Below, in pieces: positions 33,157 through 42,224 of a stretch of DNA of 45,000 bases (the stretch's first letter is position 1; each line of letters starts with the position of its first letter). Source of the DNA: Devosia insulae DS-56 (lineage in GTDB: Bacteria > Pseudomonadota > Alphaproteobacteria > Rhizobiales > Devosiaceae). A program made the translations under genes and the position numbers. Under the pieces are notes generated by a model, which saw nothing but the letters and a program-made list of their open reading frames with translations, made no database searches and was not told where the DNA came from. Location: positions 1 to 45,000 of the forward strand of contig NZ_LAJE02000198.1 in NCBI RefSeq assembly GCF_000970465.2, given 5' to 3'.

Positions 33157-35778
<2,622 letters not shown>

Positions 35779-35811: not shown

Positions 35812-37341
35812 TCATTGGGCGCCCTCGGGGATCGTCGGCGTCACCCCGTTCATCATGTCGACCATCACCTGGTAGACGAAATCCGGATCGCCGGTCGGCT
35901 GGTGCGGGTCGATCAGGTCGTGCCCCAGTTCCAGCGCCAGCGGTAGGCGAACCACGTTCACCTTGGCGCCGTGGCTCTGCCAATGCAGCACCAGCTCTTC
36001 GATCTTGGCGCCGCTCACCGCATCGTCGGCTTCGTTGATCAGCATGCCCAGCTTCGGCGCCAGCGGGGCATTCGCGGCGGCCGCGTCCATCAGCGCGACG
36101 CCGAGGCGCAGCGCCTGGGCGAGGCCGTGGGTGGCGTAGCGCGGATAGGCGTAGGTCATGCCCGGTGGGTTATCGCGGGTCGCCGGGTCCCACCACACCA
36201 TGGCGTTGGGGGCGTTGAGCAATAGCGCCGTCGCCGCGCGGTTGGCCCAGCCCGGCACCAGGTTGGGGCTGAGAAACGGCGCGATGGCGATCGACTGGTC
36301 GGCATCGGCGCGGTGCTGGCCGATCCAGCCGGCGATGCTGCCGCCGGCCGAGAGCCCAGTAATCACCACTTCATCGCCCAGTCCCTGGGCGATATCGGTC
36401 GCCTGGTTGCCGACGGCGATCAGCTGTTCGGCGGTGAGATCGGCGAGCGCCAGGCTCATCTGGTCGGCATCGCCGTGCTGCGGGATGCGCGGCAGATAGA
36501 CGTTGTAACCGAGCGCGAAGAGTTTGGCGCCGAGCTTTTCAGCCTGTGCCGGGCAGTTGGTCAGGCCGTGAAAGAACACCACGACGCGGTCGACCTTGCG
36601 GCCATGCGTCAGAAGCGTCGACAGGCAGCGCGGGTTCAGCGGCAGCGTCGCCTCCTCGGCCCGCAACGCTTCGATCTTCGCCGTCGCCTCCTCGTAGCTG
36701 GCGGCCGGCGTGCTTGCCGCGGCGTTGGCCCTGAGGCTCTCGGTATCGAGCGGCAGCAGCGTCAGGACCGCAAAGGTGCCGACCAGCGCGAGCACCAGGA
36801 ACAGTGCCAGGCCTGCTCCAAGCTTGGGCACGGTGCGCCAGAAACCACGCCGGTCGCGCTGGCGCATCGTCTCTGGATGCCGGCGGTGCAGCACCAGCAC
36901 CAGCCCGAGGCCGACCAGGGCAAACGCCAGGGTGGAGGCGAAGCCGGTGGTCAGCTGGGAGATCACCGTGCGCAGCAGCAGGTTGCTGCCGCGGCTGGCG
37001 TAAGTTTCGGGATCGAGGCTACCCCGGCGCAGCAGGTCGGACAGCGTCAGCACCACCGGATAGGAGAAGAACGCCACCAGCACCCCGGCGACGGCGCCGC
37101 GCAACAGGGTGTAGCGGCGCGGCCGGATCAGCAGCAGCCACCAGAACAGCGCACCGGTCAGACCCACGCCGACCAACAGGGTCAGCCAGCTGACGCTGCC
37201 TTGCGGGCTGGCGACCAGCTCGTTGATGGCGATGCCGGACAGCAGCACTGACAGCAGCGCGACGACCGCGAAGGCGAGGCCGGCGAGGGCGGCCCAGCCG
37301 CCGTGGCGGGGCAGGGGCGTGCGGCGGTGTTGCTCGCTCAT
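35812..37341 (-). CDS. Integral-membrane alpha/beta hydrolase (paralogue A)
   Basis: 509 residues. Five hydrophobic helices fill the first 200 (about 17-38, 52-72, 80-100, 127-150, 172-196). A soluble alpha/beta hydrolase domain follows, with the oxyanion signature HGLTNCP at 258-264, nucleophile elbow GLSAGG with Ser331, and likely catalytic His474 (LELGHDLID). The sequence is a close paralogue of the protein at 40755, sharing PVVL, LPLDTE-type linker residues, GYNVYLPR, HGDADQMSLAL and the C-terminal GHDLIDP. The substrate is unknown; membrane lipids or lipopeptides are possible given the neighbouring cardiolipin synthase. It is divergent from that gene. Confidence 0.8.
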   Translation of the reverse strand: MSEQHRRTPLPRHGGWAALAGLAFAVVALLSVLLSGIAINELVASPQGSVSWLTLLVGVGLTGALFWWLLLIRPRRYTLLRGAVAGVLVAFFSYPVVLTLSDLLRRGSLDPETYASRGSNLLLRTVISQLTTGFASTLAFALVGLGLVLVLHRRHPETMRQRDRRGFWRTVPKLGAGLALFLVLALVGTFAVLTLLPLDTESLRANAAASTPAASYEEATAKIEALRAEEATLPLNPRCLSTLLTHGRKVDRVVVFFHGLTNCPAQAEKLGAKLFALGYNVYLPRIPQHGDADQMSLALADLTAEQLIAVGNQATDIAQGLGDEVVITGLSAGGSIAGWIGQHRADADQSIAIAPFLSPNLVPGWANRAATALLLNAPNAMVWWDPATRDNPPGMTYAYPRYATHGLAQALRLGVALMDAAAANAPLAPKLGMLINEADDAVSGAKIEELVLHWQSHGAKVNVVRLPLALELGHDLIDPHQPTGDPDFVYQVMVDMMNGVTPTIPEGAQ

Positions 37342-37436
37342 TGCTTGGGGCGACCCCTCGTTGGCTGGCCGAACGACAAGAGCACAGTATCGGTGGGCGC
37401 GTCTAAACTTGGCTCATGCCGATTGGCGACGATTTT

Positions 37437-37465
37437 AGTCGACTGCGGCAGCTCGGCTGTCGACT
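37437..37465. promoter_or_regulatory. Inverted repeat in the divergent hydrolase/cardiolipin-synthase region
   Basis: AGTCGAC (37437-37443) and GTCGACT (37459-37465) are perfect inverted arms 15 bases apart, 56 bases before the phospholipase D gene. It is a candidate operator for coordinated control of both divergent genes. Confidence 0.3.
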
Positions 37466-37520
37466 TTCTATGTTCGATCATTCCATTGTCTCAGAGAGGT
37501 TGCGAGCAAAGGGGAGGCGC

Positions 37521-38957
37521 ATGGAGGGATCGACGGTCGCGTTGCTGCTGCTGGCGCTCGAAATCGGCCTGCAACTGTTCTTCGTCGGCCGCGCCTTGCT
37601 CCGGCCCTATCGCGAACCGGTGTCGCGCCTCGCCTGGGTGATGATCATCGTCATCGCGCCGCTGGTTGGGATGATCGCCTATGTGCTGGTGGGCGAGACC
37701 AATATCGGGCGCACCCGCACGGCGCGTCTGCGCAAGGCGTTCGAGACGCTGCCGCCACCGTTCGGCACCCCGGGTGTCGAGGCGCAGTTGCCGGAGGGGA
37801 CACTGCCATTGTTCCGTGCCGGCACTTCGGTCAGCGGCTATCCGCCGGTCGCCGGCAACCGGGCGCAACTGCTCGAGAGTTCGGACGCCGCGATCGAGGC
37901 GATGGTCGCCGATATCGACACCGCCACCGACCATGTGCACCTGCTGTTCTATATCTGGCTGCCTGACAATAACGGGCAGAAGATCGTCGCGGCACTGCAG
38001 CGGGCGGCGCTGCGCGGCGTCAGTTGCCGGGCGATGGCCGACGATGTCGGCTCGCGCAGCATGATCCGCTCCGAGCACTGGCGCGCCATGCGCGGCGCCG
38101 GGGTGCAGCTTGCCCGCGCCATGCCGATCGGCAATCCGCTGATCGGCGCGATCTGGGGGCGGCTCGATATGCGCAACCATCGGAAGATCGTGGTGATCGA
38201 CAATGCCGTCACCTATTGCGGCAGCCAGAACTGCGCCGACGCTGCCTTTGCGCCCAAGGCGAAGTTCGCGCCGTGGGTCGATATCATGGTGCGGCTCGAA
38301 GGGCCGATCGCGCGACAGAACCAGCATTTGTTTGCGTCCGACTGGATGGGGCATGGCGAGGACGACCTGACCGAACTGCTGCAGCGCCCGCTGCCGGCTC
38401 AGCAGCCTGGCATCGTTGCCCAGGTGATCGGCACCGGGGCGACCGTCCGCCCCTCGGCAATGCCGGAAATCTTCGTTTCGGTGATGAACGCGGCGCGGCG
38501 CGAGCTGGTGATCACCACGCCCTACTACGTGCCTGACGAAACCATCCAGGCGGCGCTCTGCGCCAGCGCTTATCGCGGCGTCGAGACCACCTTCATCGTG
38601 CCCGAGCGCAACGATTCCTGGGTCGTGGCCGCTGCCAGCCACAGCTATTATGCCGAGCTGCTGGAAGCCGGGGTGATGATCCGCGAATACCAGGGCGGGC
38701 TGCTCCATTCCAAGACCATGACGGTCGATGGCGAGCTGGCGCTGATCGGTTCGGCCAATATGGACCGGCGCAGTTTCGAGCTGAACTTCGAGAACAACAT
38801 GCTGATCGCCGATATCTCGCTCACTCAAGCGCTGCGGCAGCGCCAGCAGAGCTATATCGAAGCGTCGGTGCTGGTGCATGCCGCCGAGGTCGAGGCCTGG
38901 GGCGGCACGCGGCGGATCTGGAACAATACGGTAGCGATGCTCGGACCGGTGCTCTGA
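37521..38957 (+). CDS. cls: Cardiolipin synthase-like phospholipase D (two HKD motifs)
   Basis: 478 residues from ATG 37521, with GGGGAGG just upstream; a longer frame from 37416 adds a non-hydrophobic leader. Two N-terminal membrane helices (about 5-25 and 37-57) precede two PLD domains with HKD motifs: His220, Lys222 and Asp227 (NHRKIVVID), and His396, Lys398 and Asp403 (LHSKTMTVD). This matches bacterial ClsA/ClsB-type enzymes that join two phosphatidylglycerols into cardiolipin. A related PLD function is possible. It is followed after 115 bases by two membrane hydrolases on the same strand. Confidence 0.9.
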   Translation: MEGSTVALLLLALEIGLQLFFVGRALLRPYREPVSRLAWVMIIVIAPLVGMIAYVLVGETNIGRTRTARLRKAFETLPPPFGTPGVEAQLPEGTLPLFRAGTSVSGYPPVAGNRAQLLESSDAAIEAMVADIDTATDHVHLLFYIWLPDNNGQKIVAALQRAALRGVSCRAMADDVGSRSMIRSEHWRAMRGAGVQLARAMPIGNPLIGAIWGRLDMRNHRKIVVIDNAVTYCGSQNCADAAFAPKAKFAPWVDIMVRLEGPIARQNQHLFASDWMGHGEDDLTELLQRPLPAQQPGIVAQVIGTGATVRPSAMPEIFVSVMNAARRELVITTPYYVPDETIQAALCASAYRGVETTFIVPERNDSWVVAAASHSYYAELLEAGVMIREYQGGLLHSKTMTVDGELALIGSANMDRRSFELNFENNMLIADISLTQALRQRQQSYIEASVLVHAAEVEAWGGTRRIWNNTVAMLGPVL

Positions 38958-39072
38958 GCCATCACCGGCAATCGTGCTAAATTGCCGACCCGATATTGAT
39001 CGGTTGGCGGCAGCGCCGCGGCCAGTCTAGCGCGGCAGAGAGTCAAGACGACCGAGCGGCTGGAGGAGCAAC

Positions 39073-40758
39073 GTGCAAGTACCGGCATGGCTGAAGCGGC
39101 TCCTCGATCGTTTCTCCGAGATGGGGCTGGTGGTCGGCTCGATCCTGTTTTCGCTTGCCCTGACCCCGTCGCTGTTGCCGCGCGAGGCGCTGATCCAGGG
39201 GGTGCTGTCGGGTTGTGCCTTCGGCGCCGGCTACGGTATCGGCGTCGCGCTCGAGTGGCTGTGGAGCTATATGGGCCTCAGGCTGCCGGTGTCGAAATAC
39301 ACGCACTGGCTGAAGATCGCCGTGACGCTCTGCTGCCTGGTGCTGATGGCGGCCTGCCTCTACCAGACCACCGGCTGGCAGAACTCGGTACGTGAGATCA
39401 TGGGGATGCAGCCGGTCGAGGCGGGTCTGCCGATCTCAGTCCTGTTGATCGCGCTGCTGCCGGCCGCCATCCTGATCTACACCGGCAAGCTCCTCGCCTA
39501 TGGGGTCGGCTTCTTCTCGCGCTGGCTGGTGCGCTATGTGCCGCGACGCGTCGCACTGGTGGGCAGCCTCGTGGTGGTCGGCATCATTGCGACGACGCTG
39601 TTCAACGGCGTCCTGATGCGCGGGGCGCTGCGCGCTGCCGACGCGTTTTTCCTCCAGCTCGACGGCGTCGCCGGCCAGTTCGGCACGCCGCCGAACGATC
39701 CGCTCAGGTCGGGCAGCGCCCAGTCGCTGATCGACTGGAGCACGATTGGGCGCGACGGGCGTATCTATGCCGATTCCGGCCCGAGCAAGGCCGAGATCGA
39801 AGCGGTGATCGGCCGTCCGGCGCTGGAGCCGCTGCGGGTTTCGGTCGGGCTCCGCTCAGCCGCAACCACCGAGGCGCGGGCGCAGCTGGCGCTCGACGAG
39901 ATGCTGCGCATCGGCGCCTTCGATCGCTCGGTGCTGCTGATCGTGACGCCGGTCGGCACCGGCTGGGTCGATCCGGCCGGCATGGATACGCTCGAGTACC
40001 TGATGGCCGGCGATGTCGCTTCGGTGTCGCTGCAATACTCGTACCTGCTGAGCCCGCTGTCGCTGGTGGTCGAGCCCGAGTACGGCACCGAGGCCGCGCA
40101 GGCGCTGTTCAACGTGGTCTATGGCCACTGGACCAGGCTGCCGCATGACAAACGCCCAAAACTCTATCTCAACGGCCTCAGCCTCGGCGCCCATGCCTCG
40201 CAGGCCTCGACGCAGTTCTTCGACGTGCTGCAGGATCCATTCCAGGGGGCACTGTGGGTCGGGCCGCCCTTTACCAGCGGCATCTGGCGTTGGGCCACCA
40301 ACAACCGGCAGGCGGGGACGCCCGAATGGCTGCCTAAATTCGGCAACCAGACCACCATCCGTTTCACCAACCAGGGTGGCGGTCTCGATGTCGCCGGCGT
40401 GCCGTGGGGGCCGATGCGCATCGCCTTCCTGCAGCATGCCAGCGATCCGATCGTGTTCTTCAGCTATGCGTCGCTGCATCGCGAGCCCGACTGGCTGAAG
40501 GGCGGACGCGGGCCCGACGTTTCGCCGATCCTCAACTGGTATCCGGTCGTCACTTTCCTGCAGCTGGGCATGGACATGGCGCTGGCGCTCGAGCCGCCGC
40601 CGGGACACGGGCACGACTATGCGCCGGCCGACTACATCGATGCCTGGCGGGCGCTGATCGAGCCGCCGGGCTGGGACGATCAGGGGATCGCCAGCCTCAA
40701 GGCGGCTATGGTCGAGCGCCTCGCCCGCATCGCCGACCAATCGGCAGTGAGCAAATGA
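39073..40758 (+). CDS. Integral-membrane alpha/beta-hydrolase, Abhydrolase_9 type
   Basis: 561 residues from GTG 39073 with GGAGGAG a few bases upstream. The N-terminal about 210 residues hold five or six membrane helices, including the conserved SLALTPSLLPREALIQGVLSG segment. The soluble domain has the nucleophile elbow LNGLSLGAHAS with Ser370, and C-terminal FLQHASDPIVFF and HGHDY motifs. This fits the bacterial alpha/beta-hydrolase family with an N-terminal membrane part (DUF2319). The substrate is unknown. It is coupled to the next hydrolase gene by an ATGA overlap at 40755-40758, and follows the cardiolipin-synthase-like gene by 115 bases. Confidence 0.85.
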   Translation: MQVPAWLKRLLDRFSEMGLVVGSILFSLALTPSLLPREALIQGVLSGCAFGAGYGIGVALEWLWSYMGLRLPVSKYTHWLKIAVTLCCLVLMAACLYQTTGWQNSVREIMGMQPVEAGLPISVLLIALLPAAILIYTGKLLAYGVGFFSRWLVRYVPRRVALVGSLVVVGIIATTLFNGVLMRGALRAADAFFLQLDGVAGQFGTPPNDPLRSGSAQSLIDWSTIGRDGRIYADSGPSKAEIEAVIGRPALEPLRVSVGLRSAATTEARAQLALDEMLRIGAFDRSVLLIVTPVGTGWVDPAGMDTLEYLMAGDVASVSLQYSYLLSPLSLVVEPEYGTEAAQALFNVVYGHWTRLPHDKRPKLYLNGLSLGAHASQASTQFFDVLQDPFQGALWVGPPFTSGIWRWATNNRQAGTPEWLPKFGNQTTIRFTNQGGGLDVAGVPWGPMRIAFLQHASDPIVFFSYASLHREPDWLKGGRGPDVSPILNWYPVVTFLQLGMDMALALEPPPGHGHDYAPADYIDAWRALIEPPGWDDQGIASLKAAMVERLARIADQSAVSK

Positions 40759-42224
40759 GCCGGGCCGGCGACTGGTGGTGGACGCCGGTTGCTGGCGCCA
40801 TCTTCGGCGTCGGCGCGATCGCAGCCGCTCCGGTGACCGGGCTTGGCGTCGCCGGCCCCGCCGGCCTGCTGCAGGCCGATACCGGTTGGGTGGCGCCGTT
40901 CTTCGGCACTTTCGTTGTGGCCACAATCGTCTGGTGGCTGCTCATCGGCTGGCCGCGCCGGCTGTCGCTGGCGCGCGGCGCCTTTGCCGGGGCGCTGGTT
41001 GGGCTCTGCGCCTATCCGGTGGTGCTGGCGATCGCGGATTTCGTGCAGGGCGTCGATGTCGCAACGCTCGGTGCGCGCAGCTTCGGGATCATCGAGCTTG
41101 CCGCGTTGACCGTCGTCACCACCGGCTTCGTTGCGATGCTGATCATGGCCGGGATCGGGGTGATCGCAGCACTGCTGCTGGGCCAAGCCTATCCGCCGGC
41201 GCCGGCGTGGCAGCCGGTGCCGTGGCTGCTGAAGGCGGGAGCAGCCGTGCTGACCGTCATCGTGCTGCTGCTCGGCGCCGCCTTCGCCTGGCTGTCGCAA
41301 CTGCCACTCGATGCCGAGGTGCTCACCGAAAATCGCCCAGTGAACCAGCCGGCGGCGGACTACCAGGCCGCGGCAGCGGCGTTTGCGGCAATCGCGGTGG
41401 AGGAAGCCAAGCTGCCGCTGCATCCGGAATGCGGTTCGCGCCTCTTCACCCATGGCGCCCGCGTGGCGAAGGCGGTGGTGTACCTGCATGGTCTCACCAA
41501 CTGTCCGCTGCAGGGGGATGAGTTGGCGCGGCAGCTGTTCGAGCTGGGTTACAATGTCTATGTGCCGCGCTGGCCCGGGCATGGCGAGGCCGACCAGATG
41601 ACGCTGGCGCTCACCGCGCTCAGTGCCGAGCAGATGGTCGAGAGGACCGATGCGGCGATCGACCTGACGCGCGGGCTGGGCGACGAGGTCACTGTGGTCG
41701 GCATGTCGGCGGGTGGCGCGATGACCGCGTGGGCGGCGCAATACCGGGCCGATGTGGCGCACACCGTTGCCGTCTCGCCCTTCCTCGGGCCGCATTTCGT
41801 GCCGCCCTGGGCCAACCGCGCCGCCGCCAACCTGCTGCTCAGGATGCCCAACATGATGATGCCGTGGAATCCGCTGGAGCCGCAGGGCGCGCCGGGGATG
41901 GAGCACTCCTATCCGCGCATCCCGACCCACGCCCTGGCGCAGTTCATGCGGCTGGGCGAGGTGCTCGAGTCTGCCGCACAGCAAGCGCCGCCACGCGCCG
42001 CGGGGCTCGGCATGCTGCTGAACGACGCCGATTTTGCCGTCAACAATGCGCTGGCGCGCCAGTTGGTGGCAGCTTGGCGCGCCAAGGGCCGGGCGGTGGA
42101 TCTCGAGGTCTTGCCGCGCTCCGAGCTGCTACCGCACGACCTGGTCGATCCGCGGATGCCCGGCGCCCGCACCGAGCTGGTCTATCCGCTGCTGCTCGAA
42201 ATGATCGCGCGGCGGCCCCAGTAA
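40755..42224 (+). CDS. Integral-membrane alpha/beta hydrolase (paralogue B)
   Basis: 489 residues from ATG 40755 (ATGA overlap with the upstream stop). Five hydrophobic segments (about 10-30, 47-65, 75-98, 112-143, 160-180) lead into the hydrolase domain. It shares with paralogue A HGLTNCP (245-251), GMSAGG with Ser318, HGEADQMTLAL and a C-terminal PHDLVDP with His461. The two copies therefore flank the cardiolipin-synthase-like gene on opposite strands. The hydrolase is translationally coupled to the Abhydrolase_9 protein, suggesting a stoichiometric membrane complex. The natural substrate is unknown. Confidence 0.83.
   Translation: MSRAGDWWWTPVAGAIFGVGAIAAAPVTGLGVAGPAGLLQADTGWVAPFFGTFVVATIVWWLLIGWPRRLSLARGAFAGALVGLCAYPVVLAIADFVQGVDVATLGARSFGIIELAALTVVTTGFVAMLIMAGIGVIAALLLGQAYPPAPAWQPVPWLLKAGAAVLTVIVLLLGAAFAWLSQLPLDAEVLTENRPVNQPAADYQAAAAAFAAIAVEEAKLPLHPECGSRLFTHGARVAKAVVYLHGLTNCPLQGDELARQLFELGYNVYVPRWPGHGEADQMTLALTALSAEQMVERTDAAIDLTRGLGDEVTVVGMSAGGAMTAWAAQYRADVAHTVAVSPFLGPHFVPPWANRAAANLLLRMPNMMMPWNPLEPQGAPGMEHSYPRIPTHALAQFMRLGEVLESAAQQAPPRAAGLGMLLNDADFAVNNALARQLVAAWRAKGRAVDLEVLPRSELLPHDLVDPRMPGARTELVYPLLLEMIARRPQ

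Follow-up and report, generated by a model that had tools for sequence, protein, structure and literature searches.

Genes of the locus

We have analysed a membrane-hydrolase and phospholipase D locus of Devosia insulae DS-56, situated at positions 35,812 to 42,224 of a 45,000-nucleotide stretch of contig NZ_LAJE02000198.1 (the whole stretch is called the window hereafter). The locus contains three genes for membrane-anchored alpha/beta hydrolases, named here H1, H2 and H3, and one gene for a protein of the phospholipase D family, named PLD. These genes belong to two modules, the divergent pair H1|PLD and the overlapping pair H2>H3, which meet in only two of the genomes seen. The four reading frames that the initial annotation had placed in this region are all present, and are listed below together with the flanking gene.

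35812..37341, minus strand: H1, a hydrolase of 509 aa with five predicted N-terminal transmembrane (TM) helices and an alpha/beta-hydrolase domain
37342..37520, no strand: upstream region of 179 bp shared by the divergent H1 and PLD, partly conserved
37521..38957, plus strand: PLD, of cardiolipin-synthase type, 478 aa, with two HKD motifs and two N-terminal hydrophobic segments
39073..40758, plus strand: H2, 561 aa, with Abhydrolase_9_N and Abhydrolase_9 domains, a GTG start after GGAGGA and Ser370
40755..42224, plus strand: H3, 489 aa, a paralogue of H1 with five predicted TM helices, ATGA-coupled to H2
33157..35778, plus strand: clpB, the left flank, outside the system, which served as species marker

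For PLD, the start at 37521 is most likely, rather than the longest-frame position 37416, because AGGGGAGGCGC lies immediately upstream. H3 almost certainly starts with the ATG at 40755, the longest-frame rule giving a start at 40404, inside H2. The sequence contains all the nucleophile elbows noted previously, namely GLSAG with Ser331 in H1, GLSLG with Ser370 in H2 and GMSAG with Ser318 in H3; it also contains the two HxKx4D motifs of PLD, starting at residues 220 and 396, and the ATGA by which H2 and H3 overlap at 40755, with H1 and PLD divergently oriented as described. H1 presents the motif HGLTNC at 258, a candidate acid within NEADD at 436 and a histidine within GHDLIDP at 473. Proteins of the H1/H3 type show Ser, Asp and His in alpha/beta-hydrolase order, with the roles of Asp and His assigned by position, and residues Ser318, Asp426 and His461 of H3 are invariant in 8/8 aligned members.

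The earlier description of three polytopic alpha/beta hydrolases holds, by hydropathy, for the polytopic character of the proteins, but not for their being of a single kind, for two families are represented. H1 and H3 carry Pfam domains Abhydrolase_6/Hydrolase_4, share 42% identity and are, to judge from their sequences, old paralogues. The alignment of H1 with H2 is no better than chance, and H2 scores over the Pfam gathering cut-offs of PF10081 (369.4 bits, cut-off 26) and PF15420 (202.3 bits, cut-off 27). A search of PHROGs returned generic esterase/lipase entries for H1 and H3 and no match for H2.

Hydropathy predicts five TM helices in H1 and H3, with positive loops fitting an N-in arrangement and a catalytic domain outside. 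Four helices of H2 rise above the hydropathy threshold, while a fifth (residues about 40-64) was recognised by reading; its domain again lies outside. Hydropathy and the positive-inside rule would therefore have the catalytic domains of all three hydrolases facing outside. The topology of PLD is ambiguous by hydropathy.

Conservation in Devosia

The genus sample comprised 19 genomes, including that of D. insulae DS-56, and ClpB was found in 18 of them. Orthologous PLD (at least 94% identity) is present in 5/19 genomes and H1 in the same five, the two genes being adjacent and divergent in all of these (5/5). These genomes are the closest ClpB relatives (97-100%; next 94%), and within their clade PLD (94-96%) is more conserved than H1 (81-89%). 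A more distant PLD relative, 48% identical, occurs in genome G006 with none of the hydrolases nearby.

The second pair has a different distribution. H3-type genes occur in 3/19 genomes, those of the window, of Devosia sp. Root413D1 (G004) and of Devosia sp. ZB163 (G015), and always follow H2 directly with a 4-base overlap. In ZB163 the pair lies at another chromosomal place, without PLD, its H2 and H3 being 63% and 52% identical to those of the window. By domain search, Abhydrolase_9 is present in 6/19 genomes, a count that leaves aside a truncated H2 at a contig end of G010; H1/H3-type genes are likewise present in 6/19. Only the window genome and Root413D1 showed all four genes together, and genome G007 has H1, PLD and H2 but no H3. 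Among named genomes, related loci were found in Devosia Root413D1, 66-14 and ZB163, with a fourth, in a Porticoccus assembly, that matches only in part. A conserved four-gene unit is consequently rejected: no linkage of all four genes extends beyond one clade in the samples searched, and the set is incomplete in G003 and G007.

The PLD protein and its upstream region

The cardiolipin-synthase-like nature of PLD is borne out by its score of 332.4 bits against the equivalog cut-off of 290 for TIGR04265 (NCBIfam), and its Pfam domains are two copies of PLDc_2 plus PLDc_N. Another cardiolipin synthase (Cls) of the same genome, on contig C260, scores 356 bits and is 31% identical to the locus PLD, which by sequence is the second Cls copy of the genome. 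Neither copy reaches the cut-off of the narrower models PRK12452 and ClsB.

Between H1 and PLD, at 37433-37467, there is an element TTTTAGTCGACT-N14-GTCGACTTT that is exact in 4/5 genomes and has two changes in G003. A search of the whole genome allowing up to 3 mismatches returned only the locus site and no sign of a regulon, so that the element may perhaps constitute a private operator or regulator site. A terminator-like site at 37446-37462 overlaps the conserved GTCGAC element of this region. Over the block as a whole, 8 terminator-like sites were found against 3.3 expected, and a sigma-70 promoter scan found none against 0.7 expected. As regards a phage or mobile origin, which was considered alongside the PHROGs matches given above, the G+C content of the block is 0.66-0.69, compared with 0.62-0.66 in its surroundings, and no tRNA genes were found within the window.

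Distribution in the order and class

The wider survey covered 347 genomes of the order, drawn evenly and including our own, plus a class sample of 385 genomes that included members of the order. The counts are lower bounds, as the best four candidates per genome were scored (six for Abhydrolase_9), at E cut-offs of 1e-20 for the H1/H3 type and 1e-75 for PLD in the order, and 1e-50 for the H1/H3 type in the class. Abhydrolase_9 is present in at least 63/347 order genomes, 62 of which exceed the curated cut-off and one of which has a weak match below it, some matches being fragments. H1/H3-type genes are present in at least 9/347. All nine of these genomes carry Abhydrolase_9 as well (Fisher 1.3e-7, kinship uncorrected), and in 7/9 the two genes adjoin. 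At E <=1e-50, the class sample showed the H1/H3 type only in our own genome.

In another family, f17, the H1/H3-type gene lies divergently next to Abhydrolase_9 in 6/7 of the genomes carrying it; in the same six genomes, a DLH-type alpha/beta hydrolase follows Abhydrolase_9 at -11 to +19 bases. The seventh genome (G224) has its H1/H3-type gene adjoining the DLH-type gene, with Abhydrolase_9 elsewhere. By eye, the f17 proteins have a shorter membrane part, of about two TM helices, while sharing the linker and the catalytic domain. In a midpoint-rooted tree of Abhydrolase_9, in which the window and Root413D1 were given their partner labels by hand, the Devosia and f17 groups are far apart; hence, the association between H2 and the H1/H3 type is either old or has arisen twice.

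For PLD the situation is different. Relatives at E <=1e-75 are present in at least 30/347 order genomes, our own included, and we inspected the neighbourhoods of the best 18 of the 29 others (E <1e-120), no PLD gene being called in one stretch (L178). None of the 17 neighbourhoods outside the genus with a called PLD has an H1, H2, H3 or DLH-type neighbour (0/17, two of these being contigs of only 4 and 5 kb). In three f40 genomes (L185, L186, L188) an unrelated gene of 227 aa, presumably endonuclease/exonuclease/phosphatase-like by its sequence, overlaps the gene for the close PLD relative. Judged by co-occurrence beyond close strains, the test suggested by the initial annotation, the link of H2 with the H1/H3 family holds and the link with PLD does not. 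Phyletic overlap nevertheless exists, for close-PLD genomes have Abhydrolase_9 in 12/19 cases compared with 63/347 overall (Fisher 8.8e-6) and H1/H3-type genes in 4/19 compared with 9/347 (Fisher 7e-4), kinship being uncorrected in both comparisons. It lends weak support to the idea that the genes are tied in function though not linked.

Hydrolases adjoining Abhydrolase_9

The farthest-reaching finding was not among the proposals of the initial annotation and concerns the genes next to Abhydrolase_9. The analysis encompassed 59 loci, made up of 55 of the 56 order stretches around Abhydrolase_9 and the genus loci L027, L028, L029 and L031; L118 (no H2 gene called), the window, L030 and L032 were omitted, as were 7/64 order matches that were fragments or lay at contig ends. 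Genes were called with our own codon-usage caller, which missed H3 in Root413D1. We scanned 115 proteins at positions +-1 and, as controls, 106 of 107 proteins lying four genes away, a set that excludes proteins of at least 1500 aa and L130:2-550, which runs off its stretch. Of the controls with GxSxG, 10/14 were scanned singly, the remaining control assessment coming from 25 of 140 families.

Alpha/beta hydrolases or patatins account for 27/115 adjacent proteins, distributed over 21/59 loci: 11 of DLH type, 7 of H1/H3 type, 4 of another alpha/beta-hydrolase cluster, 1 of DUF900 type and 4 patatins, with assignments made partly by cluster and one of the 4 in the other cluster falling below the Pfam cut-off. 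The control gave 2/106 among the matches listed, one alpha/beta hydrolase and one patatin. The difference has a Fisher probability of 5e-7 by protein and 5e-6 by locus, assuming 59 control loci and retaining kin. This association of Abhydrolase_9 with partner hydrolases is new, if modest. The adjoining patatin-like genes lie at 7574-8602 in L029, 8329-9171 in L108, 10383-11468 in L130 and 10525-11517 in L132, and the same patatin cluster is found two to four genes away from Abhydrolase_9 in L027, L103 and L106.

Relatives of Abhydrolase_9 are also found on 50 plasmid records, several of megabase size, while those of H3 are partial only (6 records). Among six annotated plasmid loci there is no common partner and no cardiolipin synthase beside Abhydrolase_9; an esterase of the PHB depolymerase family is adjacent in 1/6. 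One such gene (L139) is on a 12-kb plasmid of Cupriavidus pauculus (NZ_CP082867.1), and two Enterobacter plasmids carry Abhydrolase_9 at similar identity to H2 (44%). These Cupriavidus and Enterobacter plasmids hint at horizontal spread.

Interpretation of the two pairs

How should the neighbourhood of these four genes be interpreted? The explanation that we favour, with a probability of about 0.45 and hence tentatively, is that the locus consists of two neighbouring pairs, H2>H3 serving periplasm-facing hydrolysis of lipid esters and H1|PLD comprising a second cardiolipin synthase with a hydrolase. H2 and H3 would then be translationally coupled serine ester hydrolases, anchored in the inner membrane with their catalytic domains in the periplasm. 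H2 would probably take one acyl chain off a membrane lipid and H3 would hydrolyse the resulting mono-acyl product, although which of the two acts first is a guess; both deacylations would take place, one after the other, in the periplasmic leaflet of the inner membrane. PLD might convert two molecules of phosphatidylglycerol (PG) into cardiolipin and glycerol, or carry out a related phosphatidyl transfer, and its sharing of one 179-bp upstream region with H1 suggests that the two are perhaps co-regulated. The idea of lipid remodelling put forward by the initial annotation thus survives in part: membrane lipid ester chemistry is consistent with the hydrolase and patatin neighbours of H2 and with the H2-H3 pair in two contexts, whereas a four-gene system making and then processing cardiolipin is not upheld.

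Several observations weigh against the favoured explanation. Alpha/beta hydrolases cleave many esters, and their neighbourhood is no proof of lipid substrates. Two AlphaFold predictions, derived from shallow alignments of 6 and 5 rows, have mean pLDDT values of 38.4 and 40.2, so that fold and catalytic triad rest on sequence only. The H1|PLD linkage, being confined to one clade, may reflect inherited inertia. G003, a complete genome of one contig, has H1 and PLD without Abhydrolase_9 or H3, no remnant being detected beside PLD at E 1e-3. Two other genomes of the genus, G005 and G008, have H2 without an adjacent H1/H3-type partner, and no such partner adjoins H2 in G220, which belongs to the same family as the window. 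Moreover, 38/59 Abhydrolase_9 loci lack an alpha/beta hydrolase or patatin at +-1, and the neighbour counts are uncorrected for kinship.

An unlikely, yet serious, alternative is that the hydrolases act on periplasmic esters that are not part of the membrane, such as plant or soil esters, xenobiotics or fragments of storage lipids, in scavenging or detoxification. Such a role would fit the patchy presence of H2 and the H1/H3 type even within the genus, the DLH-type hydrolases among the partners in other genomes and the plasmid records of Abhydrolase_9. However, the hydrophobic anchors in H1, H2 and H3 weigh against it, as do the patatin-type phospholipases beside H2 in 4/59 loci.

It is rather unlikely that hydrolases with nothing to do with one another came to lie behind clpB by chance and have simply been kept there in one clade. 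The confinement of H1|PLD to the five closest ClpB relatives is what this would predict, and the absence of H2 and H3 from G003 and of H3 from G007 agrees with it; nevertheless, chance would hardly explain that H2 and H3 are coupled in two contexts and that H2 is linked to the H1/H3 type in a distant H2 clade as well.

Distinctly improbable is a single pathway for all four genes, in which PLD would make cardiolipin or a phosphatidyl derivative that H1, H2 and H3 trim or process. All four are adjacent in the window and Root413D1, close-PLD genomes overlap with those having Abhydrolase_9 (12/19) and the H1/H3 type (4/19), kinship uncorrected, and G220 has all the families, including two H1/H3-type genes. 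However, the genes are unlinked in G220, G003 and G007 keep H1|PLD with the set incomplete, close relatives of PLD stand apart from the hydrolases outside the genus (0/17) and so does the 48% relative in G006, and the PLD relatives of the three f40 genomes overlap an unrelated gene.

A head-group esterase role, in which the hydrolases would free modified PG or cardiolipin of amino acids or acyl groups, is very improbable: such hydrolases are described in the available text of two papers (AhyD, PMC13123819; AcvB, PMC13197417), but the genome has no LPG_synthase_C (MprF/LpiA type) match, the control search being positive in 7/14 named genomes.

Returning to the explanation by two pairs, it can be extended into a broader proposal that, taken whole, we consider quite unlikely. 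Abhydrolase_9 would be the core of a widespread and unnamed module of periplasmic lipid turnover in Hyphomicrobiales, with an interchangeable second ester hydrolase (of H1/H3, DLH or Abhydrolase_6 type, or a patatin), the two together stripping lipids step by step in the periplasmic leaflet of the inner membrane. In a single Devosia clade, a dedicated second cardiolipin synthase with its own hydrolase would have been added to this module for local cardiolipin remodelling. How cardiolipin and other phospholipids are turned over in that leaflet is little understood, and Devosia would lend itself well to such studies.

Comparison with known systems

Of the lipid esterases described for the membrane or periplasm, aminoacyl-PG hydrolases such as AhyD or AcvB are, to our knowledge, the closest. 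AhyD is a hydrolase recycling Lys-PG, according to the available part of PMC13123819, and aminoacyl-PG hydrolases of the AhyD/AcvB kind also appear in the available parts of PMC13197417 and PMC13135905. As is proposed for H1, H2 and H3, the AhyD and AcvB/VirJ proteins are, in these texts, membrane or periplasmic ester hydrolases participating in lipid turnover. In contrast with aminoacyl-PG systems, the D. insulae genome has no match to the aminoacyl-PG synthase family, and no VirJ-type domain is among the Pfam matches of H1, H2 and H3.

Literature searches found no paper on a phospholipid-related operon with a hydrolase and Cls, nor any such locus by title among the matches listed in a broader search, and nothing on cardiolipin synthase in Devosia or under DUF2319. 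Cardiolipin synthases of the PLD type vary in their acceptor. The locus PLD resembles ClsA-type synthases of TIGR04265 in its score over the cut-off, its two HKD motifs and its N-terminal PLDc_N domain, yet differs in failing the PRK12452 and ClsB cut-offs; its reaction is assigned by sequence similarity.

The top matches of the H1/H3 profile in the PDB are monoacylglycerol lipases and LipS, over about 100 residues, the core aligning at a profile E of 5e-7 with the thermostable monoacylglycerol lipase 4lhe_A. The match is not full-length, covering only about positions 241-342 of a 488-position profile, and H1 and H3 differ from these enzymes by their five predicted TM helices and a conserved linker. 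By sequence, the H1/H3 type is a distant relative of monoacylglycerol lipases and not a member of that group.

H2, finally, matches both models of the Abhydrolase_9 transmembrane lipases (PF15420 and PF10081) almost end to end. Members of this family are termed 'alleged lipases' or transmembrane lipases in the available part of PMC11878206, and literature searched by family name yielded, in the texts available, no biochemistry for them. H2 differs from the family as described in that part of PMC11878206 by having a coupled partner of the H1/H3 type, which is absent from the description. Such a partner would narrow the function of Abhydrolase_9 to the hydrolysis of lipid esters in company with a second hydrolase.

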